NCBI GenBank assembly: GCA_030272155.1
Contig: CP126197.1
Coordinates: forward strand, 2,604,001 to 2,668,000
Length of the DNA stretch: 64,000 nucleotides
Reading direction: 5' to 3'
DNA from: Tetradesmus obliquus
Taxonomy: Eukaryota > Chlorophyta > Chlorophyceae > Sphaeropleales > Scenedesmaceae
In this document: one piece after another, positions 3,901-63,377 of the stretch
Position numbering within the stretch: the stretch's first letter is position 1
How the letters are laid out: every line of letters begins with the position of its first letter
Notes under the pieces: model-generated
Told to the model about the DNA's origin: nothing
Database searches by the model: none
Seen by the model: the letters and a program-made list of their open reading frames with translations, nothing else
Position numbers and translations under genes: made by a program

Positions 3901-6900
3901 GCACGAGGGGCCCCAAGCACTCGGCACTCGCGGGCACTGCAGGTCCCTGACGGTGGGGCAACTGCGTCTGACTGCCACTAATCTTCCTGTTCCCGCCGCC
4001 TGGCCTCACCTGCAGGCTGGTGACATCATCCAGCTGCGGCTCCACTTGGGTGATGTCTGCCAGCTCCGTCTGCGTAGCGCTGCAGGCACAGCACACAACA
4101 CAACATTCCATTCACAAGGTCAGCAGCACACAACACAACATTCCATTCACAAGGTCAGCAGCACCCAATTACGGACGAGAAACCAGACGCAGCACAGGCA
4201 CCGAGTCAGCAGCAAGTTGCTGTCCCTGCTGCCCGAACCCGCCGTGCAGGCTGCAACGACAATCCCCTGCACAGTGCCTGCCTGCATCCTTGCGTGCTGC
4301 TGCTGCTGCTGCTCACATGGTTTTGCTGGGCCGCGAGCTGCGTGAGCTGCTCTTCTCCATGCTGCGGCTCAGCCCAGCAGCACCAGCAGCATCCACGCCC
4401 TCCATGCGCCAGCGCCTGCACAAGCCATACAGCAAACAGGTCAGGCAGCAGTGCAAGGAAAGTCCGACAGAAACGCAACCTGGCCGAGCTACCAGCTGCC
4501 TGCAATGCTGTAGGCGCCAGAATCATCACTGCCCCTGCCATCCACAATGGCTGCCCTGTGCAAATATCTACCTGCTGCTATGTAGCACACACGCGGACAA
4601 CTGCAGGGCTGCCTCAGCTGCTCTGCTGCTGCTTGCGTAACACCGCTCACCTGCTACTGCTGCCTGCTGCTGCCATGTCTGCAGGGCCAGCCGGCGCTGC
4701 TGCGCCATCAGCGGCGCCACTGCCAACGCTGCGCACAGATGACGGCCCCATGCTGCTGCTGTAGCCCGGCACCTGCTGCGGCGGCAGCGGCAGTGGTGGC
4801 GGCTGCTGCTGGTGTGGTGATGGCGACTGCGCCGGCCTGCTGTGCTGCTGCCGCTGCGCTGGCGAGAACTCGTCGTCGTCGTGCAGGTTGAGCGCGCCCA
4901 CTGCGTCATACTCCAAGTCCTGCGCACCCCAACCTGAGCCTTCCCTGCAGCAGCAGCAGCAGCAGCGGCGGCAGCAGCAGCAGCACACCCACCCAAATGA
5001 GCAATTGAGTGAAATGCAGAACATGCTCCCTTTTCCCTGCTGCTTCACCAACCACTGCCAGGCACAGCACAGCCAGGCGTCACCAACAGCAGCCTGCATT
5101 GACCGCACGCATCCACCCCACTCACAGGCTGCCCCTGTTACTGTCCAGTCGAAGTCCTCTGCTTCCAAGCAGGCCCTAGACCCTCAACCCCCGCATTCAA
5201 GCACACGCATAGCCCGCCTCCCCACTCACAGGCTGCCCCTGTTGCTGTCAAAGTCCACGTCCTCCGCCTCCTGGAAGCCCTTGCCGCTGCTGGCGCCGCC
5301 GTCGCCGCTGCTGATGCGCGCCTGCCTGCTGCGGATGCCGCCGCCCTCGTCCTCGCCGCCCTCGTCCTCCCCGATGGTGGCCATGCTCGTGTCGCCGCCT
5401 GCAGCAGCGCGGCACGGCAACGCACACGCATGCAGCAGCCATGGCAGTTCTTGAGCAGAAGCAGTGACCGCGTGATGCGCAGCAAGGTGTCTGACATATC
5501 TGCAGCACACGCTGCCTCGCTCGGCAATCAAATAGCTGCTACAAAGCGCTCCTCGTGTGCCGTGTCCTGCTTGTTCCAGCGTGTCACTGCCCCAATGCGC
5601 GGCAAGTCTTCTACTGAGCCATTGCAGCTGCCGCACTGCCTTGTGTGCTGCTGCAAATCTGTGGCAGCAGTGTGCTGCTGTGCTGCTTGCAACAGCCACC
5701 AGCCAGCTAGCCGGCCGACCACAGCCACGCACCCTGGCCTGGCGCGAAGCCCTTGAGGTCCTGCTCTGTGCGCTTGTTGGCCTTGGCGCCCTTCCCCAGG
5801 CTGAAGAAGTCGCGGATGTTGGTGGCAAGGCCAGAGCCTGGCGCCAGCAGTAGCAGCAGCAGCGGCAGCAGCAATGCGATACGCAGAGTGAGTGGGTCTG
5901 AATTGTTGGTGTTGGCGCGCAGACTGCACAACAAGCACTCAAACTGAAATATAAAATGGCTGCTGCAGATGCTGCTCCTCCTGCTGCTGCTGTAAATGCT
6001 GCTGACTGGCTATTGCGTCTTGCCCCTGCACCCCCAGCAGCTGTGTGCCAGGGCCAGCTGCCGCACCTGTTGTGTCGGTGCTCATGGATGCCACCTCATC
6101 CTCTGTCATGTCAGCACCAGCCTTTTTCCAGTGGCACCTGGCAGCAGCAGGAATGACAGCAGAGTCCGCGCCTTGTTATGTGCTGCACAGAGGAACCCCA
6201 AACTGCAAGGCTGGCCTAGCGTGCCAACACGGCTGTTGCGGCGCCGGGCTACTGCCTTGACCACGCACTGCTGACATTCTGGCACACACGACCCTCAGAG
6301 CAAGCACGTCAGCAGCTGCAACTGGCTGCGTGTTTCAAGCATCATCATGTCAACTGCACAGCATGCGCTGCAGCCTGTTGATGCAAAAGCTGATGCAAAC
6401 CTTCATGCCAGCTGCAATCCTGGGTGTTTGTGTGTGCCTTGTACCAGGCAAGCTGCGCTGTCATGCAACTGGGGTTTCGTCAGTTGCACGGCAGTTGCCA
6501 CAGTAGGCTGTTCTGGGCAGCTGCACCTAGCTTGCAGGACACCCCTTTCAGCTGCTGACACGTCTCGCAGCCATGTTGAAACCCTCTGCTGCCCTGCCTG
6601 CTGTCCTGCAACACACCTGATGGTGACAGTCAGGTGAGGCTCGCCAACAGCTGCGTGGATGGACTTGTTGCAAGCCACTGCAAATGTGCGCAGCTCCTGA
6701 CCATCAATGGAAGCAAACTCTGACAGGTCAATGACAATCCTGCCGAGTGCTGCTGTGGCGTGTGTCCGGCCATCTGTCTCCAGCACAGCCAGGATGAGGC
6801 ACTTCTTCTTGAACGGACCCAACTGGCTGTTGCGGTCGGCGCCAGGCACCTGCATTGCCAGCAATGCATGTCAATCCTGCAACTAGAAGATGTATCAAAG

Positions 6901-7230: not shown

Positions 7231-7402
7231 CTTGGCCTATTAGTCCATAAAAGCGTGTGCAGTATGAGCAGTTTACTGATGCACGGCAGCGCACGAGTGC
7301 CTCTTGCACGTAGCGGCGATTCAGAGTCGGACTGCACCCGGGAATGCTATGAAAGGTCGACGCCGAGCCACCCTGCCTCAAAATGTCATTTGCATGTCGC
7401 AG

Positions 7403-7774: not shown

Positions 7775-7849
<75 letters not shown>

Positions 7850-8699: not shown

Positions 8700-11600
8700 A
8701 TGGCAGGCGACAGAGGGCGCAGTAGTAATGGCAGAGGCAGGGGCAGGGGCAGGGACACTCCTGGCAGAGGCACACCCCAGCAGGGCAGAGGCACGCCCCA
8801 GCAAGGCAGGGGTGCACATGCAGCATTCAGCCCAGCTGCAGACTACAACACCCCCGGCAACAGCAGCAGAGGCAGGGGCAGGGGACGTGGCGGCAGCAGC
8901 AGCAACAGCCCATGGTTTGGGGACAATCGCGGCACTCCCAGCTCTGCAGGCAGGGGCGCAGGCAGGGGCGCAGGTGGCCGCTTCACACCCCAGGCGCTAC
9001 AGTCCACACCATCAGCAGCACCAGCACCATCAGCAGTCAGTGGCACAGCAGCAGTTGATGCTGCTGACCGTGAGCTGCTGCTGATCAGCAGGGACGCCAA
9101 GATGCATCATGTGTGGGAGGTGAGGCTGGGGCGCTGCTGGCCTGCAGGCGCATGTTGCAGCCACACACATCGCACCTGCAGCACCAGCAACAGATAACTG
9201 ATATGGCATGCATGGACTTGGCACACGCCACATTCACACAACTTGATATTGGACAGTATCACACCATGCACATGCATGCACGGCTGTGACCAGCTGTTAA
9301 TTGAGCAGCAAACTGCAAGGCCAGCCGGCGAGTCATCCACAGCGCTCTGTACTTGCCTCCTCCGCTGCCACTCGTGGTATTTCTGCCCCGCGCCGCCTCT
9401 GCAGCTGCGTGTGCACCCCAGCCAGCGCTTTAGCGCTGCGTGGCTCGCAGCAGTAGACCGCTGGGCCCTCAACATGGCCAGCCAGCAGCAGCAGCAGCAG
9501 GGCCTGGCCATGCCACCCCCTCCACCACCCCCTCGCAGCCAGCCAGCAGCAGCAGCAGCAGGCGCTGCACCAGTGCCTGCAGAGCCCGCAGAGGTGCATG
9601 ATGATGACTATGAGTTTGACTCTGAAGAAACAGATTCAGACTACGAAGATGCAGCAGAGCAGGAGCAGGCGGCAGCAGGTGGCAGCGGAGACAGTGATGA
9701 CAGTGACGCCTCGGAGGATGATGCGTACGACATGGTGTCATACCTGAACAGGATGACGCTGCAGGACGACAGTGCTGCTGCTGCTGCTGGTGATGATGAT
9801 AACGACAGCCAGCACAGCGCAGACGACAACATCAGCACAGCAGCAACCGCAGGCAGCTCCGTTGCTGGCAGCCGGCGCCCTCGCTGGGGCCGCAACGGCG
9901 GCAGCAGCAGCAGCAAGCCACGCAGTGCAGCAGGCGGGTCTGCTGCTGCTGCTGCCAGGGCTGCAGGCATGGCTGATGACTCTGCTGCTGGCGGCTCTGG
10001 GGAGCTGGATGATGACTCAGGCTCAGGCAGCTGGGAGACAGACAGTGAGGCAGCAGAGGGTGATGACGATGCTGAACAGCAGCAGGCGCAAGGGGAGGCA
10101 CCAGCAGCAGCAGCAGCAGCAGCAGTAGGGCAGGGGGATGAAGGCAGCTCTGAGGAAGAGCAGGAAGGCAGCTCAGACAAGTCTGACACAGCAGCCATGG
10201 ATACTGCTTTGACAGCAGCAGAAGAGAAGGACTTGCTTGGCGAATACCAGCACGAGGAGCAGGAGGAAGCAGCAGCAGCATCAGCAGCAGCAGGGGTGGG
10301 CAGCCAGCGGCCACCCAAGCAGCGGCGTGGTGAGCGCAAGCGTGAGCGGTGGCAGGCGCAGCAGCAGGCGCAGCTGCTGGTCAGCCTGAGGCTGGAGAAG
10401 CAGGGGCTCACAGACAAAGAGGTGCGTTGGTGTGTGTGTATCTAAGACTGATGTTCTCTACAAGCGTTTCTGCATGGACTGTGTTTCTGTGGATACAGGT
10501 TGACCTGCAAGTCCTCCCAGCATGACTTATCGTGCCGGTGGGTGATTGAGGGCAGAACCTGACGGAATGGACGCGTTGCCTGCACATTGAAATGGCAGCG
10601 ATTGTGCACAGGGATGTTTTTATGGGCAGCAGGCTAAGTCGACAACAGTAGATGTCCAACGGCTCTGACGTTTTCAAACCCTGGTTGGCCATCTAGTGCT
10701 GTGTGTCTCTCCACCGTGTGTCTCATCAAGTTCTTAACACCAACTGCTGTGCGCACGCGCTACTGCTGCTGTGTTCCCACAGGCCCGGGTGATCGCCAGC
10801 TGGTATGCCAGCAGTGCGGGCGCGCAGCGCCTGGGGTTCGCCAAGCTGTGGCTGTTTGACAACTCACTGGGCGACGGCGCAGCGGCAGCACTGGCACCAC
10901 TCATAGGTGAGCACCGCTTGCTTCAGCCACATGCTGCTGCTGTGCTGGCACTGTGCTTCTTCTGCTTCACTAGGCAGGCATCGACTGATCACCAGCTTCA
11001 AACAGCCAGCATTGTTGTCAATCATTTGCAGCTCTACGCATCTGCCGTTGCACCAACATCGGCTTAATCTTTGTATCATCACACCTGAAATCCCGCAGGC
11101 CCCACCACCACAGAGATCCACCTGAGCCACAACCAGATCAGCGCAGCGGGCGCCAAGGCGCTGCTGGGGGCCGTGCCGCTGCAGCGCGCGCGTGGCGCCA
11201 AGCCGCTGTGGCTGCGCGTGGAGTGGAACCAGATCGATGAGGCGGAGCTGCGGCGCTACATACAGCAGGTGCGTGTTTTTGGTTAGCCACACTGCATGGA
11301 TGCAGGAGTTTTATGACTGGACACTGATAGGCCGTGCTGCAACAATGCGATTGCTGCCGAAGCAGCACGACCGTATGTGCTTGCGTAATGGAAGGATTCA
11401 TTTGGCATGTAGGGCAATGTGGCCGCAAAGCGTGTTGCGCTGGCCTGAGCAGCGGGTGCAGTCTGCCTGCAGCTGTGCTTGCGGCTTCACCTTGTGTGCA
11501 TGTTTTTGCAGTGCCCTCACCCTTGACAAGCTGCAGGATATCAAGTTCTGCGCGCCTGCTTGTCTTTCTGATCCTGGTCTCTGCCGCCTGCAGGACTGTG

Positions 11601-13121
11601 CTGCGTGCAAGCTGGTGGTGGACATTGCCAAGGAGCTGCAAGTTACAGAACCCATTCCTTCAAGTTTTTAAACCAAGGTTCTACGTCTGTGCTACTTTTG
11701 CCTGCTCCTTCATGCCTCCTGCAGGACTGTGCTGCGCGCAAGCTGGTGGTGGACATTGCAAAGGAGCTGCCAGTGGAGCAGCGCACACGCACCGACAGCA
11801 GGGGCAGGGAGCTCAACCTGGTGTGGTCGCTGCCCTGGCAGCAGGTGCACGTGCAGATGCCCTGGCTCAGCTGCCAGCGCGCAACACCAGCAGAGGCAGC
11901 AGTCCTGCAAGCAGCAAAGGCCATCTGGGCCAAAGCTCCGGCAGCAGCAGCAGGTGGCGCTGCCGGCGACAGCTCCCAGCAGCGCCGGCAGCAGCAGCAG
12001 CAGGCGGCGACGCCGGCATCTTTGGCCAGTGGCAGTGGTGGCAGGATGGCTGCTGTTGTAGCAGCTATGTCAGCTGAGTGTGCAGGAGGCGTGCGGCAGC
12101 AGCAGGATGACGCTGCAACGCTGCCATTCGTGCAGCAGCAGCAGCCCCCTCCACCCCCACCTCCCCCAGCACATGCAGTACAGCCCCAGCCGCCGCCACC
12201 TAGCCGCGTCTCATTCTCAGCAGCAGCTACCCCGGACTTATCTGCAGCGGCAGAGCCAGCCGGCGACAGCAGCAGCAGCAGCAGCGCTGCAGTGTCCTAC
12301 CAGGATGGCCCGCTGATGCTGTTTGTGGACACCTCAGCCTTCCTGTCCATGCTGGGCTGCCCCGGCAGTGTGGCCTCAGGCACCTGCCTCACCATGAAGC
12401 TGCTGCAGGCACTGGCTGGCTCAGGGAGGTTCGGCAGGGGTGAGTGAGCTGGTTTGGGTGCGGCTTTGTCCACTTTTGTTGCCCTCAGCTTGCCAAATGG
12501 TTGGTTCTGCTCAGAACATCAGTTGGGTTGCTGCGTGGCTGTGGCTGTTGTTGGCTGGCCGGCTGACTGGCTAGCAGACAGTGCTGTATCACCCTATGTT
12601 CACTTGCACCAGGCAGTGTGGCCTCCGGCACCTGCCTCACCATGAAGCTGCTGCAGGCACTGGCTGGCTCAGGGAGGTTCGGCAGGGGTGAGCGAGCCCA
12701 TTTTTTAGCTCAGAACTGCAGTGTGCTTGCCATGTACTGCTGCCTGCCGCGTCTGCTGCCCCATGAATGTAGCACGTAAGAACTGCAGTATGCCTGCCAC
12801 CTTGGTTGCTGTTTTCTTTTGCCACCGTTGTTGCTGTTTTTGCTGACATGCCTGCCTTACATCATCCCCCCCGCCTCTCTGCCACACACAGGCTTGGCCC
12901 CTGAGCAGCAGACCTTCATCGTGCTGGCTGTGATGTCTGCAACACCGCAACGTTCAATTGTCATTCTGGCTGCCCTAACATGCTGAACTGCTGCAGGCCT
13001 GGCCCCTGAGCAGCAGACCTTCATCGTGCTAGCTGACACAGTGCTGAAGCAGCTGGACAGCTGCAAGGCGGCAGAGGCGGGCGTGGGCGGGCCCGTGCGT
13101 AGGTGCGCAGCAACCAGTGGT

Positions 13122-13154
<33 letters not shown>

Positions 13155-15665
13155 CACAGGCTATGGTCGGCATCATAGTGAAGGCCGGAGTGCACATCAC
13201 AACTACTTGTGGTACAATCATGTTACGCTTTCAAGGTTGGACCTGGCATGCAGTACGTGCTGCTGCACATGCATGCGCATGCGCTGCAGCACGTGGCATC
13301 CCCACAAGGTGCAGCTGCACTAGGGTCAATGTTGTGCTCAGATCACCAACTCGTGCATTATAACTTGACGTACCGTGTGCCGTGTGGCTGCCGCCTCCCC
13401 TCAGGTTCCTTGACCGCGGGCTGGACGAGGCTGGCCCCAAGGGCCTGGACTTCCTCACAGTGCTGGCGGCACACGAGGGCGAGGGACTGGTGGTGGACAG
13501 GTGGGGGCAGTGCTTTCGCTGTGGCAGACAAGGGTTGGACTTAGCAGCAGACGACTTAGCAGCAGACAATCAGCAGTGCTGGCTGTGACAAGGGCGAGGG
13601 CCTGGTGGTGGACAGGTTGGGCGCTGCATGAGTCGGGTGGGAGGGGCTGAGGGTTGGGGTCAAGACCAAACCTTAAGCAGTAGCAGCAGCGGCAGCAGCA
13701 AGAGGAGTAGGGTACTAAGGCCTGGTGGTGGACAGGTGAGGCACTGTGGCAGCAACAGTACTATATATGCGTGTAAGCATGCCTGTGAATGGTGCGCATG
13801 ACGGGCTCGTTGTTGGTAGGTCTTCAGTGCTGTAACATGTTCCTTTGTCCTGTGATTGTGCGCCCATCGCTTCGTCCGCTCTGTATGCACATGTGCATTG
13901 CGAGCAAGCCGCAGTGGCAGTCTTCCGCAGCCCTCGCTTTGCCGGCAGCAGCGGCCAGCGCAGCAACTCTACTCAAGGCAACATGTCCTTTGCCCTGTCA
14001 TTACTCGCCTATGCTCTGTTTGCTCTGTATGTGTTGTGCTTGTGAAAATCGTGCTTCCAGCAACTCCTTATACTATGTATCCATGTATCGCAGGCAAGCC
14101 GCAGTGGCGGGCTCCCGCAGCCCTGCCTTTGCCGGCAGCAGCGGCCAGCGCAGCGACCTGGCCATCATTGAGGTGGCACTCTTCTTCAGGACAGAGCTGC
14201 TGGCGGCAGCAGCAGCAGCAGTAGCAGAGGCAACAGCAGCAGCCAGTGGGGCTTCAGAAGAGGCAGCTGCTGCAGCTGCACCCTGCACACCGACCCGGCA
14301 GCAGCAGGCTGCAGCGGCAGCTGCTGCTGAGGCGCAGCCGGTCATCCTTGTGACGAATGACAATGCGCAGCTGCAGCTGGCCAAGGCGCACGGCCTGCCT
14401 GCATTCAAACTGGCAGGTATGCACCGGCAGTGGGTCTGCGTCACCAGCTAGATCAACTACAGCATAATGTATCTGGCAACGCAGCAATGTTTATCTGTAG
14501 TCGCCTGGGCTGCTTTCTGCTGCATCATGTCACTCAGATGCCATTGTCTCCTGCTGCACTGCATTCGCACACATGTTTGATTGGTTGATTACTCCACATG
14601 CCGCATGCACACAGCATCCACCTCATGCTGCTGGCCACCCCCTGGCCGCCTGCTGTGCTGCCCCTGTGCCAGGTGCTGCTGGCTTTGAGGCCTCCCTGGG
14701 TGAGCTGATCAAGGGAGGGGCGGACCTGAGCAGCAGGCAGCTGCGGCAGCTTATGGCGCCAGCAGCAACAGCAGGCCTGGGGGCGGTGGCGGGCCGCAGC
14801 CTGCAGGTGCGTGGTGTGGTGTGGAGCATGAAGCCTGCGCTGTCGCAGCTGCCCGGCAGGGCTTGGTTCTCTATTGCCTTTAGCTGCTGACCAGGCATAC
14901 AGCTGTATGGAAATATTGCCGCAGACATCAGTTGATGTGTCTCACATCTCATGCTTATCGAGGGAACCACACGCATTATCATCTACCTGCACCTGCTTTC
15001 CAACCAATGCGCCTGTCGTGCTGCTGTGCTACCTCCGGGCTTGCTTCACACTACTGCCGATTCACCCTTTGGCACTGCAGGATGACTTTGACGGTGCTGT
15101 GTGCTGCACGCGTGGCCTGCTGGACGCCTACCAAGACCTCAGCGGGCTGCTGGCAAGGGTGAGGCAGCCAGCAGCAGAATATCATCAGTGACTCACAGAG
15201 CATGGGCCCGTTACAGTAGTGCTTATGCATGTTTTGTCGTTGTACCGCGGCAGCCCAACCGCTCTCCATTGCTACGCCATGACGCCACATGTAGCATGTG
15301 TCACCATGCTGCTGCTGCTGCTGCTGCTCCTGCTGCTGCTGCTGCTGCAGGTGAGCATGCTGGCGGCTGGTGCAGGTCCTGGCGAGGAGCCTGCTGCGCT
15401 GCAGGAGCTGCGGCAGCTGCTGCAGGACCACCAGCACACCGCACCCTTCGAGAGCAGCCCAAGCGGCGGCGGCTGCACCCCTGCTGCTGCTGCTGCTGGC
15501 GGCTGCGACAGCGGCAGTTCTGTGCTGGAAGTGGCACAATCCAACATTGCTGCTCTTGAGAGGAGCCTTGAGGGGTGGGAGGCGCGGGTGAGGGGCCGGC
15601 ACACGCCCAGCAGGGTGCTCAAGTGGGCCAGCAGCACAGGGCGCACGCCTGCTGGCCCTAGGTAG
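8700..15665 (+). CDS. RG-rich, LRR and PIN-domain protein, SWT1-like (11 exons)
   Basis: Exons: 8700-9119, 9405-10421, 10783-10906, 11099-11268, 11725-12439, 12997-13102, 13405-13500, 14094-14416, 14673-14806, 15081-15158, 15351-15665. All are in phase and give 1165 residues. Residues 1-140 are rich in RG/GRG boxes (RNA-binding type). Residues 170-470 are polyQ/P/A and strongly acidic, hence disordered. Residues 480-577 carry two ribonuclease-inhibitor-type leucine-rich repeats (LWLFDNSLGDGAAAALAPLI, IHLSHNQISAAGAKALL). The C-terminal half has PIN ribonuclease strands: LMLFVDTSAF (acidic D near 778), TFIVLADTVLKQLD (about 820-835) and VILVTNDNAQLQLAK (TND near 970). An insertion lies between the second and third strands, as in SWT1-type PIN proteins. 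A role in RNA surveillance or decay is inferred. Five introns or intron ends contain exon-edge echoes. Confidence 0.85.
11581..11640 (+). repeat. Exon-edge echo of PIN-gene exon 5 (acceptor side)
   Basis: A near-identical copy of the acceptor and first roughly 45 bases of exon 5 (GACTGTGCTGCGTGCAAGC against GACTGTGCTGCGCGCAAGC), about 130 bp upstream of the true acceptor at 11725. Splicing here would read DCAACKLVVDIAKELQ and then soon reach a stop. Confidence 0.85.
12611..12693 (+). repeat. Exon-edge echo of PIN-gene exon 5 (donor side)
   Basis: About 80 bp nearly identical to 12364-12445, covering the 3' end of exon 5 (LTMKLLQALAGSGRFGRG) and its GTGAG donor. It is placed about 250 bp downstream in the intron. 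Confidence 0.9.
12892..12934 (+). repeat. Exon-edge echo of PIN-gene exon 6 (acceptor side)
   Basis: A copy of the acceptor and start of exon 6 (LAPEQQTFIVLA) about 105 bp upstream of the true exon start at 12997, with an intact preceding CACACAG acceptor. Confidence 0.85.
13592..13740 (+). repeat. Two echoes of PIN-gene exon 7 end
   Basis: Copies of the exon 7 border (GAGGG-CTGGTGGTGGACAG followed by GT) at about 13592-13618 and 13719-13740, downstream of the true donor at 13500. Both keep a possible donor. Confidence 0.75.
13905..13968 (+). repeat. Exon-edge echo of PIN-gene exon 8 (acceptor side)
   Basis: About 60 bp similar to the start of exon 8 at 14094 (AAGCCGCAGTGGC... GCCGGCAGCAGCGGCCAGCG), placed about 190 bp upstream in the preceding intron. 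Confidence 0.85.
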
Positions 15666-17719: not shown

Positions 17720-17755
<36 letters not shown>

Positions 17756-26406: not shown

Positions 26407-27793
26407 CGTGCAGTGGTCAAAGGCAGAATGGACACAGTTTAACAGGTACACCGTTGTTTCTTTTCAGCCTGACAACTGTAGCGCTTGACTGAACGCACTA
26501 TTCACGCTCGTGTGCGCGGGAGTGGTGGTTGGCGCGGCTACGAAAGTAACAGGCGAGGAACCATCGCTCGACCAAAAGTCACTTATTTACCTTAACAAAG
26601 TTACGATGCTGGTGGATCGTCAGTGCCTTGTGTCTGTAACAAAATGAGTCACGGTCAATCGCCCGCAGGTGGTGTCCACGTGGGCAACACACACCGACAC
26701 ACTCGCGGACTGGCTGATCGTCACAACACGTGCAGACAAGACCGTATGTTATTGCCTTAAAGACACGTCTAATCAGTGCGACTGGATGCTGGCAGCACTC
26801 TACGCCAATCCATCAAGGTTGCCATGTGGGGCCATTGCATGCTTGATCGTGGCTTACACAGCACAGATCACACGGCTGGCTACAAACAACACCATAACGG
26901 CGATAGTATTGCTTAAAGGGTGGTAACAGATGCACCAACAGCCGGCCGAAATGCAGCAAGTATGACACAACGCTGACACTGTTGTTGACCAAGCGCCATC
27001 TATCAGACATGTTGGCAGCCACGCCATGAAGTACTTCCATGGCCTGAGGCGGTTGCACAAGCCAAGGTATCAACAGTCAAACAGGGCAGCACATCACCAT
27101 GCTGATGCCAGTCTGCTCAAGCTGTCACAGCAGGCCAGGATGGCCACGCACATGTGCACATGTGCATTCATACGCTGCGAGAAACATACGCTGCGTGTGA
27201 CATACACCTGTTGGCTGCTGACAGCTGCACGCATTGTAAAACCAGGTCATGCAGCAACATGGGCTGCACAGAATGGCACCGGCGGCTTCCGTTGCAGCTG
27301 ACAGGCCCTGGGTTCCCTGTAAGCCAAGGCAGCTCAGCTGACCGGTGACCAATCAACAGCCTGAGGATGCAGCTGCGGCTGCACGCCATGCATCAGCGTA
27401 TACAAGACACCGCCTGCCCCGCTGCAACCAAGCCAACCGCAACAAGGGCACCCGTATGCAGCGGCTGCTTGCACACTGATCGCGGGGCTGGAAGAAAAGC
27501 AAAAGTCAGCCTACCGAAGGCAGCAGACATTCGCTGCCTGCGGGCCTCGACGGCAAGCCTGCAGCAACACCGATGCAGCCACACCCCAACACAAGAGGCG
27601 CAGCTCGAGCTTCAGCAGCAACAAGCCAGAGCCTCCCCAACATACCATCAAACTCATCCCCATACACAGCACAATGCAGCAGCGGCAATCAAACTCACGA
27701 AGGTACAGATCACCGCCTGCGAGGGGCTGGCTCTGGCTCCTCCTCATCTTAAAACTCGCCATACTCGAACTCGTCATCATACAAAGCACACAT

Positions 27794-27845
<52 letters not shown>

Positions 27846-27857
27846 TTGACTCACAGC
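26407..27857. other. Intergenic stretch between ML and NAP1 genes
   Basis: Contains the ML-gene 5' flank and, at 27640-27843, echo copies of the NAP1 last exon and a CAG run (27797-27843). I see no independent gene. Confidence 0.5.
27640..27790 (-). repeat. Echoes of the NAP1 last exon
   Basis: A copy of about 70 bp at 27711-27786 (matching 27851-27945, the acidic tail YGDEF... EEEPEPAPRR and the GGTGA at its end) and a shorter one at 27637-27660 (YGDEFD). They lie downstream of the exon in the sense direction. The preserved GGCGGTGAtct leaves open that the TGA-containing border is also a donor. Confidence 0.75.
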
Positions 27858-30800
27858 TCACCGCCTGCGAGGGGCCGGCTCCGGCTCCTCCTCGTCCTCA
27901 AACTCGCCATACTCCCCGTCATCAAACTCATCACCATACAGAGGTGGCGCGGCCTCCCCAGTGAACCATTCCACTGCGCGCGGCACCAGGCTCTCGCGCA
28001 GCGCTGTGGCGATCTCGTAGTCCTCGTCCATCTGCTGCTGCAGCGCCTCCAGCTCCTCCTCGCTGAGGTCATCAGGGTTCTCAGGGACCACAGGCGTCCT
28101 GCTGGGGAAAGGGGTGGAGGGGGTGAACAGGACACCAGATGCCGAAATGTTGAGTGGGAGTGGAGGTAACAAACCGGGACATGTCGCTGGCCAGATGTTG
28201 ACCAGCGCAGACAAGCAACATCAACCAGGTACTCAGTGAAAGGCCAGCTGATGATGAGCAATTAATCATTGGAAATGTAACATAACAACACACGTCACGC
28301 ACTGTGCCGTTACGTGCATAAGGAGTCAGCTGTGCTGTGGCGCCGTCAGGTGTGGGCCTAGTGGCCAGTCATGTCATTGGGCGCAAGGCCCTGCAACAGA
28401 ATTCACCAATTACACAAGCATCATAGGGCGCCAAGGCACAGCTGAGCATCAAGCTCAACAACATTTAGCCTCCTTCATCAGCTTGTGAGTCATAGTAGAC
28501 ACTGCAGTGACCACTTTCTGAAGCTGTCCTTGTGAAGCAGCTGTTGCACATAGCTGTGCAATCGCTGCTACAGAAAGACGGCTACAAAAAATCGCAAAAA
28601 GGGTGCATCTCAGGCAGAGGGTCAGCTGTAGGAGAGTCCCACGCATGTGCCCCTTGGTCCTGGATGCATCAGCTCAGTGGCTGGTGTTGGCCACTCAGCG
28701 CATCAGTGACTGCCAGCAATGCATGTTTGGCAGAGGCATGGTTTGGCGAGGCCACACCAGCCATGCACACAAGAGCCTGATGAGGGCAGAAGAACAGCGG
28801 CTGCAACAAGCAAAACTGCCAACAACCCCACAAGTGCAGCTGTGCAAAGTTGCATCACCAGGGAAACACCTACTTGTTGCACTCACAATGCTGCTTCAAT
28901 CAAACAACACACACAGCATATTATTAACATCGTGTGCTGTGGCGCCGTCAGGTGTGGGCCTAGCGGCCAGTCATGTCATCGGGCACGAGGCCCTGCAACA
29001 GAATTCACCAATTACACAAGCATCATAGGGCGCCGATTGATGACTGGGCAGCACTTTTATAACAGCCAAGCCTCCTGCATCCACACGTGCAAAGCTGCAA
29101 TATGACCACAAAATCCAATAAGCTGCAGCGGCTGCTTGGGGGACACCTTGAGGAAGCTAGAATGACACTTTGTGACACTTTCAACACATGGCCAGCTGTG
29201 CAGCTGCCACACCACATGCTCCTTGGCCCTGGCTGAAATCTTACGGCTTACAGGCCAGTTGGGCAGCCCATGCAGCAGCTGCTTTGTCTGCAAGCACTGC
29301 ATGCTTTTCAGCAAGGAAGGTGGTGAAACTGCACCAAACAAGCTTGCTGCTCAACGTCTGCCGCTGCACGAGAATGTACCAGACAGCAGCACAGAGAGCA
29401 TGATGTGCGCGAAACGTCACCAGGAGACGTGCCATCTTATACCCACCCAAAAAAAACGACATAACAACAATGTTTTGTGCTGTGGCGCCGTCAGGTGTGG
29501 GCCTAGTGGCCAGTCATGTCATCGGGCGTAAGGCCCTGCAACAGAATTCACCAATTACACAAGCATCATAGGGCGCCACAGCCTTTTCAGATCCAAACCC
29601 CCAACCTTTTTAACTACGACAGTGCAATAGTTGATTCAAAAACTACTCACTCACTCACTCACTCACTCACTCACTCACTCACTCACTCACTCACACGCCG
29701 CACGCACTCACCCACACCCCTCGATTTACACACAAGCGCACACGCAGGATAGCACGAGCTCGAAGGCACTCACTTGAAGAAGTTGAAGAAGGAGTCGCAG
29801 GGCTTGGTCTGGTTGATGGTCACAGCGCCCTTGCCCTTGTTCTTCTTGTCCCCCACCTTCTTCTTGACCACGCTGACTGTGGTGTCCTTGCCGGCCGCCC
29901 AGTCGATGCTGCAGCCCACAAACTTGTCAGGCACAATCTCGTCCGGGTTCTCCATGTAGAACGTCTTCTCCAGCACCTGCAGCAGCAGCGGCAGCAGCAG
30001 CAGCACATGTTGGAATGCAGCTGGGTCAACATGTGAGTGCAGCTGGGTGTTTTGGAAAACCGAAGCAGTCAGCACACTACGTATACAGCATCACACACAG
30101 GGCATCAGCGGGATGCAGCCAGCGTGGCGTGCAGCGCCTCCCGCCCTCCCTTGTGTGTTGTTAGTTTGTGTTTGGTTGTTTCGTCGTACAACGCTTTGTT
30201 GTTTGTTTGCTTGTTATCCCTGGCCCTCACCTTGTTGCTGCATAAGGGCTTCTTTCTCAAATTAGAAGTCAGCCTGAAGCTGCCTGCCTGCTCACCAGTC
30301 AGGCTGGCGACCCAATAGATAGCAAGCTATACACTGGAACCTCTGGCAGAGTTTGACCCTGGCTCACCTTGTTCGTGAAGAAGGGGTTGTCCCTGAAGCT
30401 GAAGGTGAGCTTGAAGCTGCCCGCCTCCTCCCCGGTGAGGCTGGCCACGCGCACGTCAGCCAGGTACGACAGCACCTCCGCGTCACGCTCAGTCACGTAC
30501 TCGCCCAGCAGGTCGTGGTTGGTGATGGCCGTCAGCCAGAAGTCGGGGATGCCCTCGTCTGCGCAGCATAAGAAGATGCAGACTTTCAGTATGCAGTAAA
30601 TATTGTAAGCAGTCTAAGGGTGCAGAGCATCCTCTGTATAGGTGGTGTGTGTGCGGCATGTGCGCTGGCGTGCGCGGCATCGGCGGGCTGTGGCGTGTTG
30701 CATGTGCTCAGCAAATGCACGTCAGGGCAGGCCACGGATTGCTCACTATTTGCTGCAGTGCTGCCATCATAAAAGTTCCTGATCCCTTGTGCGTCTGCTA

Positions 30801-33925: not shown

Positions 33926-34487
33926 AGGAGAGCTCAACCACCGTGGCAGAGCGTGTGCTGCGCATGTCATGGCCCATCCTGCCCATAGGGGTGGTGCTGT
34001 CGACAGCTGTGTGTGGCTTCGTGCTGTGGCGCTCTGCTGCGCAGGGCGGTGACCTGGCATACCAGCAGGCTGTCGTCGCTCATGGTGCGCTGGCTGGTGC
34101 TGCAGCAGCTTAGGTGGAGCTAGGTGGCGCCACAGCAGGGATGCTGACATAGAGATTGCCTGGACTGACATGCAGCAGGGTGTATGGAGCTGCTGGGCTG
34201 AGCAGCATGGGTGAAGTTGGCTGGGGCTGCAGCAGACCGGCGCAGCACAGCAGCACCAGGCTGTTAGGCAACAATACATTTTCAATCGAAGGGTGTCAAC
34301 GGAATTGTGTGGGTTGTGATGACTGTGTCTTACATCTAGCAGTGGCTGGCGCTGTTCAGCTGCATGCCGCGCCCTGCTGCCCGCCCTGCTGCCTTCTCTG
34401 CAGGCGTGGCAGCAGTGCTGGAGCTGGCTATGTCTTACATCTAGCAGTGGCTCAGACTGTGCAGCCGCAAGCTTCACATTGCTGTCA

Positions 34488-34527
<40 letters not shown>

Positions 34528-45411: not shown

Positions 45412-48207
45412 ATGCTGCTGCATATCTTCTGCTTCGCCTTGGCCGTGTGGCCGGGTGCTGTGCACAACTTAGGGGCAGCAGCACAAACCACGGCACAAAG
45501 AAACATACTGCCTGCTGCTGCTGGCGGACGAGCTGGTGCCACCACCACAGCGGTGAATGGGAGGACATTCAGCAACACGCGCATCTTGGGGCAGGTAAGC
45601 TTGCATCACAGATCAAGCCAACAGTGAATATAACCATCGTTTATGCACATTTATATCTGCTAGAATACAGTATCACCCCTCAGGCACCCACGCCATGGTG
45701 TGTGTGCCGTGCATCGGGAGGCAGCAGCAGCTACACCAGCCTGTTGTACCAGCAGCAGAGTCGATCACCTTCCCAGATCATTGGCTACCACATGGCAACA
45801 GCAGCAGAGTCGATCACCTTCCCAGATCATTGGCTACCGCATGGCAACAAGCCTTGCACAGTGTGACACAGCTACTGTACGCACTTACCGCAACTGATCT
45901 GATCAAGGGCTTAAGCCAGGCAAAGCTTTGCCAGGACTGCAGCCGCACTTGCCTCTATGTCTGTGAGGGCAGCCATGCTCCTGCTGCTTCAAAGGTGCCT
46001 TTGACACGCCAGCGCCGCCAATGTCACTGCTCGCTGCTGCTGCTGCTACTGCTACTGCTGCTGCAGGTCTTGGTGTTGGATGTGGGCAGCCTGCATGCGC
46101 CTGAGCCAGCCACGCCAGGCACAGAGGCAGCAGCCGCTGCAGCAGCCAACCCAGAAGCCACAGCAGCCGCGGGCCTGTACATAAAGTCGGTGCAGGAGTG
46201 CTCGCTGCACTGCGCGCTGCTGCCCGGCTGCAACGCGTTCAGCTACTGCAGCACCACCACGGGCTGCGGTGCAGGCTGCGCAGAATGGGCTGCGCAACAC
46301 CCGCCAGGTGAACATCTGAAGTTGTCGGGCTGCTGTGACAGGGGGCGTGAGACAGGCAGCACATACGCGCCGTGTATTGTCAAGCTGTGAATTGCTTGGT
46401 CCACCTGGGGGGGTTTTGATGCAGCGTGCACCCCAGCTGCCTTTGACGGCGTACCCAGCCGCACTCCTGCATGCTGTGTATGGCAAGCGTGGGCGGCTGG
46501 CTGTGTGCAACTCCAACCACTGCTCCGCCACAATGGTTGCAGCAGAGCCCGATGGTTGAGGCTGTACGCCGTAGTGTGTGCCTCTCACTGCAGCAGCACC
46601 CAGTGTGAGTCCCTGTTTCGGTGAGCATGCAGGCAGCAGATCTCATTCATGCGCCATTGCCGCTGCCCTTCTTTGCCTGCTGTGTTGCAGTGAACGCCAC
46701 TGGCGGCGTCAAGGGTGATGCCAGCAGCTATTGGGTGCAGCTGCCCATCACAGGTGGGCCGGACAATGCTCAGCAATAGAGGCTCTAATGCACTTGCATA
46801 AAACAGCCAGTAATGCGCAGTCCAGCAAAACGGGCCTTCAAGCGGTTGCAGGCAACCGGCCAGCATGGCAGCCTGGTGCTGTATGATGCCCACAACCTTG
46901 TTGCACTGTGTTGCCTTTGATCGCTAGCTGTTGCAGAATTAGCAATGACACACGGCCGGGACACCCCCCTGTATACGACAAATAAGACACGGCTCGACAC
47001 GGTGAGCCGGGGAGTCCCCTGCTGCCGCCAAACACGCTGTGACGTGTTTCGGCGTGGCGCACAACGGCCGTGCTGGGACACACGAATACAAGAACGTACA
47101 CGTGTTCTAAGAACAGAGGCTCGTGCTGCTGTGTGCAGGCTTTGGCCCCTTCCTGCCCAAGGGCAGCAGCGGCTGCCATCCTAGCGGCGGCTGGCCGTAC
47201 GGCATGTGCTCCCTGGCTGCAGTGGAGGACCCTGCTGATGCTGTCATCCTTGCACAGGGTGCTGCAGGAGCAGGTGAGCCTGCAGCAGCAGCAACAGCTT
47301 GAAATAACCCGACTGCTGCCTGCTTGCCATGTAGTCTCTTGGCCTGCTGTTACTTTGTGACTGGCACTGCTGCTGGCACTGCAGTCACTGCCGACGGTCG
47401 TGTTTGCAACGCCTCCAAATGATTATCCTCAGCAGCCGATGGCACGATGATGCGGCTCGTTGTGCACACCCTTTGTCCAGTGCACAGGCAGCCGCCAAAG
47501 CCTACCAGGGAACTCACCGCCACAACTCACCTGCCTGCACTGCGCTGCCGCGGCACCTGTGCTCCTCTATGACACTTGTACCTGCTGCCAGGCTGGGTGT
47601 CTGGCGTGTTCACGCTGCCACCCGCCTGCACTGGCAGCTCTGCACGAGCCTGTGAGTCATGTGCTGGCGGGGCCAACGTGACTGGCTGCCTGGCCTGTGT
47701 GAACAGCACGCAGCAGGACGCTGCCAGCCTGGCCATCCGTGGCGTGTCAAACCTGCGGCAGCCTCAGGTGCGCTGCAATACAATTTGGTCGAAAGGTCTT
47801 TTACAATACATCTGCTATATGTGCATTTACCATATAGATATGTCATTTTAGATCTCAGGATTGAACCCTACCTCAGGCACAAGCCCTGCGGCAGCCTCGG
47901 GTGCGCTGCACATCGTGTGAAGGACAATTGTAGTCAGTAGATGCATGGCTAAGCACATGCAAGCAATGCTGTACCATGGTGTGGGAGCAGCAGTAGAAGC
48001 CATACTGGCTGGTGACGTGGTGTGCTGTGGCTTGATCCTTACTCTGGAGGTATTTCACAGAGCCATTTGATGTGGTTTTAGAATAGTGTACATCAGGGTG
48101 CGCCCCTTGGCAATGGCGCACAGGCGCTGTCCGTATCAAGCAGACACTGTGCAAGTGCCTAAAACACACCAGCTACATGTGCCCCATGCACCATATACCA
48201 TACCCTG

Positions 48208-48522: not shown

Positions 48523-48556
<34 letters not shown>

Positions 48557-49332: not shown

Positions 49333-49417
<85 letters not shown>

Positions 49418-56997: not shown

Positions 56998-59900
56998 ATG
57001 GCCACAGCAACACAACTGCAGGTGGAGGAAGTCCCCCAGCAGCTCAACAGCTTGCAGCAGGCCATCAGCTCCAAAGTTTGTGCTCGAGTTGGGTTGTTGG
57101 GCAACCCCAGCGATGGTTTCTATGGCAAGACGATCTCCTTTTCCCTGGCAAACTTCTATGCTGAGGTGCGGACTGTGACAGACACTGCATGCGCGGCTAG
57201 GGCTGCATCCTTTGCACAAGCAGCAGCTTCTGTGGCAATTGGCCTGGGCAAAGTCATCAGCTACTCACCAGACCATTGTGTAAAGCGCAGCTCCATGCAC
57301 AGCAGACTCAGCAGCGGCTGACGCCAGGATGCCACACAGAAAGGTCCCTGCAAGGTCCCTGCAAGAACCCTGTAACTGATCATAGCACACGTGCTGCTTG
57401 TGACGGGGTATGCTGTGCAGGTCAAGCTGACGCCAGCAGCAGCAGGTGTGAGCTTCCAGCCGCACCCGCAGCATGACTCCTGCGAGTTTGACTCCCTGGG
57501 GGCCCTGGGGCACAGGCTGGACACACAAGGCTACTATGGAGGCATCAGGCTACTGATGGTGAGCTACGAGGCAGCTGTATTTCTTTTTTACTGCCCTGCT
57601 GCTTCAGCGCTGCACCTACTGCAGTGCTCTGCAATAGCTCCAGCTGCTGAGGCAGCAACAACAGCATGTGTCCTATGTTCGTCAGCACAAGCTCAAGCCA
57701 CTGCCTTGCCTTTTCTATTTCCTCATAGCTGGCGCATCATTTATTGTTAGATCACTCCACAACTCGCCCTGTGTATAATCACCTTCATTCAAATGAGTCT
57801 GCGGTGACAGATAGTATTGATTTGGGGTGCGCTTGCAGGCGCTGTGCAAGCGCTTCCACGCGCACTGCAGCAAGGCTGGGCTGACGCTGCCAGCCAAGGG
57901 CTTCAGCCTGTCATATGACACCAACATCCCGCGCCAGGCAGGCCTGTCAGGCTCATCAGCCATCATCTGCGCAGGTGGGGGGCAGGCCAGCAGCCTTTTA
58001 CATCGCAGCTGGTAAACGAGCTGTTCGCACCGTGCGTTTGGTGCCAGGCCCAACATAGGACTGGCTGCAGCCTGCAATTGTGCCAGGCGGGCCTGTCGGG
58101 CTCATCAGCCATCATCTGCGCAGGTGGGGCTTGGTGCAGGCCAGTAACACACTTGTTAGCCTATGTAAAGCAGCAACATACACAAAGTCCTGTTCCTAAG
58201 AATGGGCCAGGAAGCTGCCGGGCCTCACATGTAACTACCTGTATGAATATTGCAGGTCACACATTACAAGCACAATGCAACACAATGCGTACCTGTGTTT
58301 GTAGGAGCTGCAGCCGCATATGGCCCTGCACAGCTCTGCATGCATGCAAAGCAGGCTGGGCAACCCACCTTCACCTTTTGTGCAGCCCACCCTCTCCCGT
58401 TGTGCAGCCCACCCTCACCTGTTGTGCTCAGTAGGCGTTGTGCTGCTGTGCTGCTGCTGCTGCTGCTGCCTGTCCCGGCTGCTGCTGGTCAGGCCTCAAC
58501 TGCCTGCTGCAGTACTTCCAGGTGCCGGAGTCAGTGCTGCCGGTGCAGCAGCAGCCCTCGCTCATCCTGTCAGCAGAAGCAGAGCTGGGCATCACTGCAG
58601 GCTTGCAGGACAGAGTGATCCAGGTGGGCAGCGCTGCTGCTGCTGCAGCTGTCAGCACCAGCAGCGGCAACCGTGTGGCAGCAGCTGTGATCCAACACGT
58701 ATCGCACTGCTGGTGTCAGGCCATGTGTGGTACAGGTACCCCTATCAGCACTTTGTGCGCTGTGGCGCTGGATGTGCGGCTGGATGACCTGCAGCAAACT
58801 TGCCCTGTGCTTGAAGTCAATGCTGAACATGGCCTGCCTCACCACTGCCAATCCACCTCAACCGCCACTGCACGTGTGCCCATGCTGATGTACTTGCACC
58901 CCATCTGCTGCCACCTCCTAGGTGTATGGAGGTGTAGTGTGCATGGACTTTGACCAACAGCACATGGAGGCCTGCGGCTGCGGCATCTACGAATCTCTAG
59001 ACCCCGCGCTGCTGCCGCGGCTGTGGCTGGTGTGGTGCGACAACCCCTCTGACAGCGGGCGCGTGCACAGCACAGTGAAGCAGCGCTGGCTGGCTGGGGA
59101 TGCGGCTGTGCGGGAGGGCATGGCACGTGTGGCGCAGTGTGCTGAGAAGGGCAGGTGAGAGGCTGGAAGCTGTGCTTTGTTGGTGTGCAGTTGTGAGCCA
59201 CAACGCAGTAGAGGACCTCAAAAGACATATCACCGCTCTGTTGGCGTTTGGTGTCTTCTCAATGTCAAGCATGTCGCAGGGTTGCCTGCAGTTTATTGCA
59301 GATAGCCGAGCACAGCTGCTGTCAGCAGGTTGTTAATAATACGCGGCATAGGCACAACTCGTTGAGCTGCTTGAGCAGAGTTTTCCTGCAGGCTGTCCTG
59401 CAAGGCAGTGGGCGGGTGTGTATATAACATACACATTTCATAAACATGTGACCATACGCTTATTTGAAAGTGCCTGGTGTGTGTCCTGCAGGGCTGCGCT
59501 GCTGCAGCGTGACACCGCAGCGCTGGCGCAGCTGATGGACAGCAACTTTGACCTGCGGAGGTGGGTAGCTGCAGCAGCATTTTCTAAATGTTGCAAGTGG
59601 TGCCGGTGTTTTGTTGGGATCGTTTCTTTCCGGCAGCAGCATACCTTGGCCTGCTGCAGCAGCTTGGGGCTGCCAGCGGCTATGTGTAAACTGCACAGAT
59701 TGCATTCTGGGCCCATAATATTGCAGGTGGAGCCGCTGCCATGTTTATATCACTGTTTTCCGCTGTGAAGTTTTCGCTTGGGTTGCAGCCTGACCAGCTG
59801 TTGATGTGCCTGCTGTGCTTATGTATGCTGAATGGTACGACTGCTTCCCGCTGCGACGTGTCTTGTGCCATGCCCTTGCAGGCAGATGTTTGGCGATGCA

Positions 59901-61047: not shown

Positions 61048-63377
61048 ATGGAGGTTGAGGCAACACAGCAGCAGGTGCAGTCCAGTGCCAGCAGCAGCAT
61101 GCCTCAAAGGCATTAGCTTTCAAAGAGCCGCTTGCTGAACCACCACAACGCTTCTATTTATGCACTTGTAGGGCAACAAGCCTGGCAGCAAGGCTTCAGA
61201 GCGCCAGGCTCAGATCTCTCGCCTGGTTTCCCAATACAGGTTCGCAGGACAACTACAGCAGCAGCAGCAGTTGCATGTTGAACAATATGCAGCTGCTGCA
61301 TTTTGCAGCACATCTGCATAGAGTAACCTTAAGCAAACCAGTGGCTGGCAGTGGGTCCTGCAGCTGCTGGCACAAGCTGTTGCCTATGCAGCTGCTTGCA
61401 GTTGCGTCACCCGTTATCAAGCGACGCAAAGCAGATGATGGTCATGCAGCAGCTAGCTTGTTGTTGTGCCTGTATGGATTCAGCAGCCTTTGCTGCACAC
61501 ATCCGCTATCACCAACCCGCAGGGCTGAGGCCAACACGCTACTGAAGGATGTGCTGAAGCAGCAGCACCGCTGGCGCAACGAGCTGCAGGAACGCGGCGT
61601 GCTCACAGGCATACCCAACAGCAGGCCGTACGTGAAGACGCTGCCCCACGTGGTGCGTGCAGTAGCAGCAGCAGCAGCAACAGCGGCGGCATGGGGCACC
61701 CAGCAGCAGCCATGTGCTGTGCAGTATGCTGGTGCAAAGCATCCGCTCAGCAAGCAGCCTGCACTCATGATGCTCTCTCTCCGCCTGCAAGCAGCTTCTG
61801 CAACCGCTGGACTACCTGCTTGCCATCTGTGGATTGGTGAACACCACGCCCTCATACACGCTGTGCTGACGCATGCTGTGTTGTGCTTTGTTGTGCTGAC
61901 ATGTGCTGTGCGTTGCTGTGCTGCCATGTGGCCTGCAGCGCCGGCACCTGAGCTGGAAGCAGGCGGAGCGTGACGCGCTCAAGCGGCAGCTGCTGGGGCT
62001 GGGCCTGGGCCGCTGGAAGGAGGTGCGGCAGCAGCAGCAGTGGCAGTAGGCAGCGGCAGCAGCAGCGACACAGCCACAGTGACAAAGCTGAACAGCCACA
62101 GCCACCGCAAGCAGCAGCAGTGACACGCCAGACTGACAGAGCTAATGTTGCAGCAGCCAGCACAAGTGGCGGCCCAGCAGTTGTTGTGGAAGCTCAGCAC
62201 TGTGCATAGGCAGCACGGCTGATTGTGGAGCCGCTAACACCGCGACACAGGCACTGCCACACCTGCGGCTGTGACTTCTGTACGGCCATGAGCAAAATGC
62301 AGCGATGGTCTTTGTTGGTGTTGGCTTGATGTGTCGAGCACCTGCAGCTGTTAGTCACAGGCAACTGCAGCTGTGTTGCGCCATCCATACCTAGAGCTTT
62401 TGGTAATATGTACAGCTCTCCCAATCTATCACCGACCTCTCTCTGCTGCTGCTGCTGCACCGCAGATCCACTCCGCGCTGAGCGCCAGCCTGCAGCAGTT
62501 CAAGCACGGCCCCGGTGACGTGGAGGACGCCTGCTGGCAGCTGCTGTGCGAGCTGCAGCTGCTGCTGGCCACCCCAGAGGACCGGCTGTTTGTGGCGAGG
62601 CTGCTGGAGCCGGTCGCTGAGTGGTGCCCCATCAGCACGCCAGGTGCACCCTTCAGCAAGGTGAGATGTTAATGCAACTTGCAGCGTTGGCCAGTAGTGC
62701 GTAATCTGCACAGGGATGTGTTTCAGTAAAGATGTAGCACAGGTTTGAAAGAGGTGTTTGCTGTACACCGAGCACTTACTTTGCTTGATATGCTGTTGTT
62801 GGCGGGCGACGGGTGTTTCATCGTGTCATGTGTCATCGTGGTCGATCACAACGTAATCTTGACTTGGTGCATGCTATGTCTGTTCGCTGTTCTTGCTTTC
62901 TGTGTATGCAGCTGCAGAGCTGCGCCAAGAGCATCGCGCGCCGCCATTGTGGTCAATCACATACCCCTGATTTGCCGCCTGTTTGCTCGCTTGTTTGCTG
63001 TCGACATATGCAGCTGCTGGGCTCGGCCAAGAGCATCGTGCGCCGCTATTGTAGTTATAAATCCACCCCTGACTTGCAGCATACACTTCTTTTCTGTTTG
63101 CTGCCTGCACATGCAGCTGCAGGGCTCCGCCAAGAGCATCGTGCGGCGCCTGGCGCTGCTGCAGGACTTCAACCAGCTGCTGCCCTCCCTGCAGCGCAGC
63201 GAGGCAGTGGCAGGCATGTTCAGGGCCCTGGCAGCAGCAGCGCTGCCTGCTGCTGCTGCTCCTACCAGCTGGTGGGATGTGGAGTGTGACGTGGCGCTGA
63301 TGATTGGCATGCACCGGCACGGCTACGGCAACTTTGAGGCTGTGCGGCAGGACCCAGACCTGACTGCTGCCTTCCAG
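61048..63377 (+). CDS. CHD-like SANT/SLIDE-region protein, 3' end unresolved
   Basis: Six in-phase exons: 61048-61074, 61172-61239, 61523-61652, 61939-62022, 62466-62660, 63117-63377 (about 255 residues). The short first exon is tentative. The sequence LSWKQAERDALKRQLLGLGL, then GRWKE and GDVEDACWQLLCELQLL, resembles the SANT-SLIDE DNA-binding region of CHD/ISWI remodelers. TSWWDVECDVALMIGMHRHG followed by YGNFEAVRQDPDL closely matches a motif conserved in CHD1 and CHD6-9 proteins. No helicase domain is seen upstream, so either the gene starts much earlier in another form or this is a remodeler-derived accessory protein. After 63377 the donor GTGGGC implies another exon, but none is certain; CAG followed by QQSATPHCSITPDR-stop at about 63744-63788 is one possibility. 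Confidence 0.65.
62903..63048 (+). repeat. Two echoes of CHD-like exon 6 acceptor side
   Basis: Copies at 62903-62943 and 63006-63048 of the ATGCAGCTG...GCCAAGAGCATCG border of the true exon start at 63117, regularly about 105 bp apart. Each has an intact ATGCAG acceptor and each soon diverges (RRHCGQ, RRYCSYK against RRLALLQ). Confidence 0.9.

Follow-up and report, generated by a model that had tools for sequence, protein, structure and literature searches.

Copies of exon edges recur in the adjacent introns of Tetradesmus obliquus

Introns of Tetradesmus obliquus often contain one or more partial copies of the edge of a neighbouring exon, which we call echoes or decoys (extra copies of an exon edge inside the adjacent noncoding DNA). 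Such copies had been predicted, from the sequence alone, in a stretch of 64,000 nt of contig CP126197.1 (assembly GCA_030272155.1, positions 2,604,001 to 2,668,000; C7:2604001-2668000 in our numbering), hereafter the window. Here we confirm that the observation is real and not limited to the window: about one in six sampled introns holds an echo, the copies are almost always direct and on the noncoding side of the border, the match follows the exon and ends soon after it, and decoys differ from the exon, and from one another, in a coding-like manner. The account that we put forward, with confidence that stands about level with our doubt, is that echoes descend from old tandem duplications across coding borders, the exon part having been kept in step by recurrent exchange while the intron part drifted.

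Frequency and orientation of echoes

The genome comprises 104,662,953 bases in 17 contigs. Our main sample took in 264 kb from six contigs, namely the window and five 40-kb blocks from C1 to C5; two 20-kb blocks from C12 and C9, analysed with gene-finder parameters unchanged, served as a later check set and brought the total to 304 kb. Exon borders were predicted by a self-trained, two-strand gene-finding hidden Markov model (HMM) that used sequence only. Its training converged on CTGCAG-like acceptors and GTG-type donors; the model fuses genes, and now and then predicts a decoy as a small exon.

In the main sample, 207 direct and 8 inverted repeat pairs lay at most 1 kb apart, compared with none of either in 18 dinucleotide-shuffled blocks searched for near repeats. 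Among 30 gapped families from the 304 kb (identity at least 90%, distance 60-300), 20 were anchored at an exon edge with the copy on the noncoding side of the coding border, whereas random shifting led us to expect 1.2, so that, with no near repeats in shuffled sequence, a chance origin is excluded. The remaining classes comprised one edge-anchored family with its copy on the exon side (1.0 expected), four families within exons (4.9), three in noncoding DNA alone (12.5) and two others (10.3); at 94% identity or more, noncoding-only copies numbered 2 against 7.7 expected. An excess of matches at exon borders, which the original prediction had named as one of its tests, is present beyond the window and on several contigs.

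Counted by border, with exons of 40 nt or more considered and echoes sought up to 900 nt away towards the intron (a reach that can take in neighbouring exons), a direct echo accompanied 136 of 711 predicted borders (19%; unrelated loci predict ~1.7%) and an inverted one 8 of 711 (1.6% predicted). Among 550 intron-internal segments, direct copies were found for 32 and inverted copies for 4. Counted by intron, with echoes accepted in the adjacent intron only and small pseudo-exons merged, 54 of the 313 introns in the window and the C1-C5 blocks held an echo, unevenly spread: 13 of 82 in the window and 11/41, 0/39 (C2), 1/41, 9/50 and 20/60 (C5) in the blocks. The block without echo-bearing introns (C2:1000001-1040000) also has a higher GC content, 0.618, and region or base composition may influence where echoes occur. 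That echoes lengthen introns, as had been suggested, agrees with the 53 echo-bearing introns among the 311 shorter than 3 kb having a median length of 407 nt, compared with 259 nt for those without (p=8e-6). For the species as a whole, a published table lists a GC content of 57% and introns averaging 462 bp, the latter against 230-302 bp in the other four algae of that table (PMC5966456).

The check blocks from C12 and C9 gave 28 and 17 direct pairs against 1 and 0 inverted, with like alignments, and border echoes were found on seven of the eight contigs sampled. This breadth, the length of the contigs, the arrays of up to about five units and the indels that decoys carry of their own make an assembly artefact, such as the tandem joining of sequences from two haplotypes, a very improbable source of the echoes. 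A check that made no use of the HMM found 30 of 240 pair-strands to share a GT[AG]NG 3-15 nt from the 3' end of the match, compared with 12 and 16 for the two bins that follow; a shared YAG near the 5' end gave little signal (95, compared with 85 and 69).

Anatomy of echoes and arrays

Anatomy was measured at 56 borders with gapped echoes (identity of 80% or more, with matches of up to 130 nt that spanned no more than 0.8 of the distance). There, the match took in a median of 43 nt of exon on the acceptor side or 48 nt on the donor side and a median of 8 nt of intron. The exon edge was reached exactly by 150 of 229 echo matches. Across 32 donor pairs, identity fell from 0.90 over the final five bases of the exon to 0.35 at positions 11-15 of the intron (control, 0.26), and acceptor contexts can differ wholly despite exon starts that are 95% alike: at 12889 and 12994 in the PIN gene the upstream flanks are unrelated, yet both resemble acceptors. 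Three families, recognised by eye (C5 block 5402/5515, C4 block 25916/26028 and V12 block 14974-15646), end at stop codons rather than splice sites, and the duplication boundary therefore seems to follow the coding sequence and not splicing alone.

The decoys lay on the intron side at 52 of the 56 borders, so that "always", as originally claimed, becomes nearly always, with four exceptions. This placement, together with the short range, the direct orientation and the spread over several contigs, bears out the part of the original prediction that concerned duplication at exon borders. Plain neutral tandem duplication across the border, the model of that prediction, in which exon use stays intact and no exchange follows, fits poorly because a border-spanning unit should copy intron and exon parts alike, and we consider it improbable. 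Some families are indeed full tandem units, such as C1 37297-37613 (83% over 157 nt, distance 163), and of the 20 single echoes whose exon parts match at 95% or more, seven have flanks above the control 95th percentile of 0.67 (control mean, 0.57). The other 13, however, have background-like flanks at or below it. Drift alone does not hide flanks, since end-to-end alignment over ~770 nt is still seen for dispersed noncoding repeats that are 90-93% identical. The scarcity of noncoding-only families of like size and the coding-like differences between decoys (see below) likewise speak against the plain neutral form.

Flank similarity is nonetheless a property of a minority of echoes. Over all pairs at 95% or more, with arrays counted repeatedly, mean flank identity was 0.76 and 55% exceeded the control 95th percentile; at single-echo borders, similarity reached p<0.05 against matched intron controls in 23 of 55, and after removal of 18 array or full-unit borders and of the contiguous match it persisted in 11 of 36 (1.8 expected). 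For 18 of these 36, the best local flank match was displaced from collinearity by at most 6 nt, a figure that stands without a control.

Arrays were surveyed with Tandem Repeats Finder (TRF), low-complexity units being dropped; BLAST omits self-matches less than ~50 nt apart, and for this reason short periods were counted with TRF instead. At periods of 12-59 nt, 48 arrays were coding, 46 noncoding and four border-crossing (4 of 98), whereas at 90-159 nt three were coding, six noncoding and 15 border-crossing (15 of 24); between 60 and 89 nt there was one array, and above 160 nt one noncoding and five border-crossing arrays. At least two of the six noncoding arrays of 90-159 nt (36040 in the window and C5 23006) are themselves echo arrays. 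Ordinary minisatellites or short tandem repeats accordingly do not fit as the source, the longer-period arrays being tied in location to borders. Within arrays, which reach about five units, exon pieces alternate with identical spacers, and the final exon piece is followed by unrelated sequence, flank identity being ~1.0 internally and 0.58-0.64 at the end (C1 19381, C5 23658). Exact spacers and an unrelated array end are as expected from exchange between exon pieces.

Coding-like differences of decoys

When each exon site was counted once, exon and decoy differed at 36:44:126 sites by codon position in 41 families whose decoys were less than 15% predicted exon, and at 14:13:40 and 77:75:179 in families with decoys partly (n=12) or mostly (n=71) predicted as exon. 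The decoys of single echoes (n=31) followed suit with 22:28:89. In 43 families with decoys less than 30% predicted exon, exon-decoy differences comprised 124 synonymous, 90 nonsynonymous and two stops, giving an omega of 0.28 (0.22-0.37), compared with ~0.55 that we ourselves estimate for one dead copy. Between decoys of the same family, 33 synonymous and 28 nonsynonymous differences in 10 families gave an omega of 0.33 (0.24-0.49), where two dead copies would give 1. Of 57 decoys counted, the 10 that are frameshifted showed a neutral pattern (12:16:26) and look as if they had dropped out of step with the exon; on our reading, decoy copies would follow the live exon for as long as no indel or further divergence releases them.

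Differences of this kind could also be expected if many echoes were functional alternative exons or splice sites, tandem or mutually exclusive, and conserved as such, although this does not extend to the ten frameshifted decoys. One candidate is the PIN copy at 12613-12687, predicted as an exon of 75 nt that would repeat 25 residues in frame and might, instead of being a decoy, be in use as a cassette exon. As a general explanation, alternative exons are still less probable than plain neutral duplication, and the cassette or mutually exclusive form was rejected, with exceptions like 12609-12697. The inner ends of decoys are arbitrary: AG lies nearby in 20 of 36 decoys and in 22 of the 36 true copies, and GT in nine of 18 decoys and seven of the 18 true copies; moreover, the distance between exon and decoy is divisible by three in only 18 of 56 cases (counted by hand), so that decoys cannot generally just be read through.

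Decoy splice sites and spacers

The prediction that decoys mostly keep a usable AG or GT held for GT. Decoy donors with unlike flanks scored 0.60 at +4 to +7 (n=48), similar to the 0.68 of true donors and far from the -0.48 of random intron GTG, whereas decoy acceptors with unlike flanks scored 0.08 (n=37), between true acceptors (1.98) and random CAG (-1.15), and were in a better-than-random acceptor context (p=0.006); the true sites were picked by the same matrix, so that their scores are flattered.

Compared with the 264 kb, 47 spacers mainly matched their own arrays or CTG/CAG runs and formed no repeat family, although one contains a dispersed 120-nt repeat; the single spacer queried genome-wide matched itself only. 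An introner or transposon origin of the spacers was rejected on these grounds, and where some introners have target duplications of 3-9 bp, the repeated flank here is 24 to ~110 nt of exon. Patching of spacers from DNA within 3 kb on either side was also discarded: the longest exact direct match averaged 13.1 in 34 spacers and 11.0 in 300 controls, an excess that probably arises partly from arrays, and the inverted values were 10.2 and 10.0. As to cases that would allow a comparison before and after, the matches listed for two queries of 19.5 kb (39 candidates scored each) included dispersed repeats and low-complexity sequence and no paralogous introns, and a tandem gene pair in the C3 block proved too old, its exons being ~70-91% alike.

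Discussion

On the account to which we lend about equal belief and doubt, a founding tandem duplication with a unit of ~95-150 bp would span the border between coding sequence and an intron or 3' untranslated region. The duplicate on the noncoding side would be tolerated, with splicing, or the stop codon, still using the outer copy, and the intron part of both units would then drift. The exon part of the decoy would be repeatedly re-matched to the live exon by local exchange between copies ~100-150 bp apart, be it unequal exchange, slippage or gene conversion, and changes unfit for coding would be filtered, since exchange can carry them into the exon. Further multiplication would give arrays of the form X(sX)n, where X is the exon piece and s the spacer. 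We infer the exchange, its direction, the selection that acts through it and the disuse of decoys in splicing.

Several points weigh against this account. Exchange was not observed directly in any instance, and to our knowledge conversion between homologies of 30-60 nt is unusual in other eukaryotes. A first, cruder count over 50 non-independent exon/intron pairs gave 73:73:152 by codon position, which a neutral decoy would fit, unlike the stricter counts given above, and two of the 10 multi-decoy families (36359 in the window and C3 26083) have no synonymous decoy-decoy differences. Conversion tracts should leave mismatches in patches, yet patchiness reached p<0.05 in 10 of 70 cases, a weak signal for which alignment ends may account. 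Among single echoes, 25 of 36 lack significant residual flank similarity. Finally, at 94% identity or above no full-unit duplicate in two copies was seen to cross a border, so that the founding event was not caught young; C5 1759-1971 is a period-110 duplicate at this identity, but lies within predicted coding sequence.

The absence of matching flanks is what would be expected if a coding piece of 25-100 nt, ending 0-15 nt past a splice site or stop, were copied in one step to a place 50-150 nt away in the adjoining noncoding DNA. The spacer would then be native intron, and the process would recognise the coding border or a feature coinciding with it. We hold this to be a weaker, tentative candidate. 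It would account for the abrupt ends of matches near the border and the unrelated flanks in many pairs, including 13 of the 20 singles at 95% or more, for the scarcity of noncoding-only copies even at high identity and for spacers without a repeat family. Copying alone, however, does not explain the exon-decoy omega, the flank similarity that 11 of 36 singles retain or the better-than-random context of decoy acceptors. With similar reserve, one may imagine that the coding sequence itself directs border-anchored copying or exchange, by which exon edges, cut near a splice site or stop codon, are moved into the noncoding DNA beside them and renewed there, so that introns of this lineage grow as archives of them.

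We found no account of introns that carry exon-edge copies throughout a genome in the open-access literature, judged mostly by titles and abstract openings. Gao and Lynch in 2009 reportedly described internal gene duplications that create introns or exons via cryptic sites, which, like echoes, are short internal duplications interacting with splicing; decoys at borders that look concerted set the present case apart from what they are said to have found. In the potato RdRp gene, a tandem duplicate across an intron-exon boundary turned a former exon piece intronic, the new intron being backed by phylogeny and RNA reads, and the full unit was copied, including the branch site and polypyrimidine tract (PMC4974935). 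Echoes likewise cross an intron-exon boundary, and in RdRp the splice signals come with the parental structure (PMC4974935); unlike in that one gene, about one-sixth of sampled introns are affected here, intron parts are often unmatched, exon parts look kept in step and we claim no intron gain. In Drosophila, novel introns attributed to tandem duplication or sliding occupy 25 positions in 31 genes across species, some of them via duplicated proto-splice sites, and share with echoes the duplication of exonic sequence with one copy intronised, whereas ours are repeated echoes of existing borders (PMC2891723). Introners, which are repeat families, some with 3-9-bp target duplications, also act genome-wide on intron content, but the spacers here share no family and the repeated flank is exonic (PMC9860276). 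Echoes thus differ from the known cases in frequency, border anchoring and coding-like decoy divergence.

Intron growth by exon-edge copies would be an unusual way to lengthen introns. If our account is true, the affected introns would form a large natural set for testing intron lengthening, a test bed for the choice of the spliceosome among near-identical sites 100-250 nt apart and a means of asking whether short repeats can hold dead copies to the sequence of the exon in use. In the annotation of such genomes, echoes might also account for spurious exons and wrongly placed borders.

Echo loci in the window

Among the six predicted protein pieces of the window compared with Pfam, matches were obtained for RFT1 (PF04506, 9.8e-68), NAP (2.1e-70), an amino-acid transporter (1.3e-32), PIN and GHMP kinase; NT-C2 scored 20.6 bits, below the gathering score of 25.2, and "Cys-rich" and "CHD-like" are names taken over from the original prediction. 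Self-BLAST of the window gave 35 direct pairs at most 2 kb apart, some in each of the seven genes for which echoes had been claimed (Table 1). A weak echo claimed for the transporter can be seen by eye (~21085-21108 and 21229-21250) but falls under the BLAST threshold. The predicted copy length of ~25-100 nt agrees with our data, in which start-to-start distances are mostly 80-300 nt, and so does the range of one to five copies per border, with up to five echoes at the RFT1 exon 36360.

Table 1. Exon borders of the window and their echoes
Gene	Span	Strand	Exon edge and echoes	Methods
NT-C2	5113..5271	-	True donor-side edge 5217-5271, intron echo 5113-5166; 85% over 55 nt, distance 104	BLAST, alignment
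PIN	11582..11774	+	Acceptor echo 11582-11643, true edge 11713-11774; 94%, distance 131	BLAST, alignment
PIN	12361..12697	+	Exon end 12361-12449, whole copy 12609-12697 with own acceptor and donor; 97%, distance 248	
PIN	12889..13035	+	Acceptor echo 12889-12930, true edge 12994-13035; 95%, distance 105	
PIN	13458..13621	+	True donor edge 13458-13506, echo 13574-13621; 86%, distance 116	BLAST, alignment
PIN	13904..14157	+	Acceptor echo 13904-13967, true edge 14094-14157; 91%, distance 190	BLAST, alignment
NAP1	27705..27927	-	True donor edge 27853-27927, echo 27705-27782; 86%, distance 148	BLAST, alignment
NAP1	30218..30448	-	True donor edge 30357-30448, echo 30218-30311; 74%, distance 139	BLAST, alignment
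NAP1	30828..31122	-	Donor-side pair 30828-30864 / 31086-31122; 86% over 37 nt, distance 258	
RFT1	34374..34695	+	Acceptor echoes 122 and 258 nt upstream of true edge 34662	
RFT1	34832..35234	+	Donor edge 34903, copies ending near 35133 and 35223	
RFT1	35820..36397	+	Acceptor echo array 35820-36247, true edge 36351-36397	
RFT1	36442..36722	+	True donor edge 36442-36520, echo 36642-36722; 89%, distance 200	
RFT1	37690..38045	+	True donor edge 37690-37756, echo 37780-37846; 90%, distance 90	
Cys-rich	47752..47910	+	Donor edge 47752-47777, echo 47885-47910; 96% over 26 nt, distance 133	
Glucuronokinase-like	57933..58129	+	Donor edge 57933-57980, echo 58082-58129; 96%, distance 149	
CHD-like	62860..63150	+	Acceptor echoes 103 and 205 nt upstream of true edge 63117	TRF: period 102, 2.4 copies

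Some borders carry further detail. An additional short copy of the PIN donor edge at 13458-13506 lies near 13716-13740, by eye, and both members of the NAP1 pair 30828-30864 / 31086-31122 are predicted by the gene finder as exon ends. In RFT1, one echo of the array 35820-36247 is identical to the true edge over 47 nt (distance 312), and the echo at 37780-37846 has a weaker match at 37984-38045 (76%).

Other repeats in the window

No tRNA genes were found in the window by ARAGORN, and no Rfam matches at gathering score. An intergenic stretch of ~770 nt (7403-8170) recurs elsewhere in at least 13 nearly complete copies of 90-100% identity, with partial copies split near 7554, and is thus a dispersed and partly very young repeat; inside it, 7775-7849 is a perfect TGA repeat of 25 units. 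An element of 120-125 nt at 16281-16405 has at least 14 copies elsewhere at 98-100%, and another lies in a C5-block spacer. A 102-nt element unrelated to exon edges occurs three times within a single predicted intron of NAP1 (28331-28433, 28933-29034 and 29476-29578; 96-98% identity), with one further copy on C2 at 91%.

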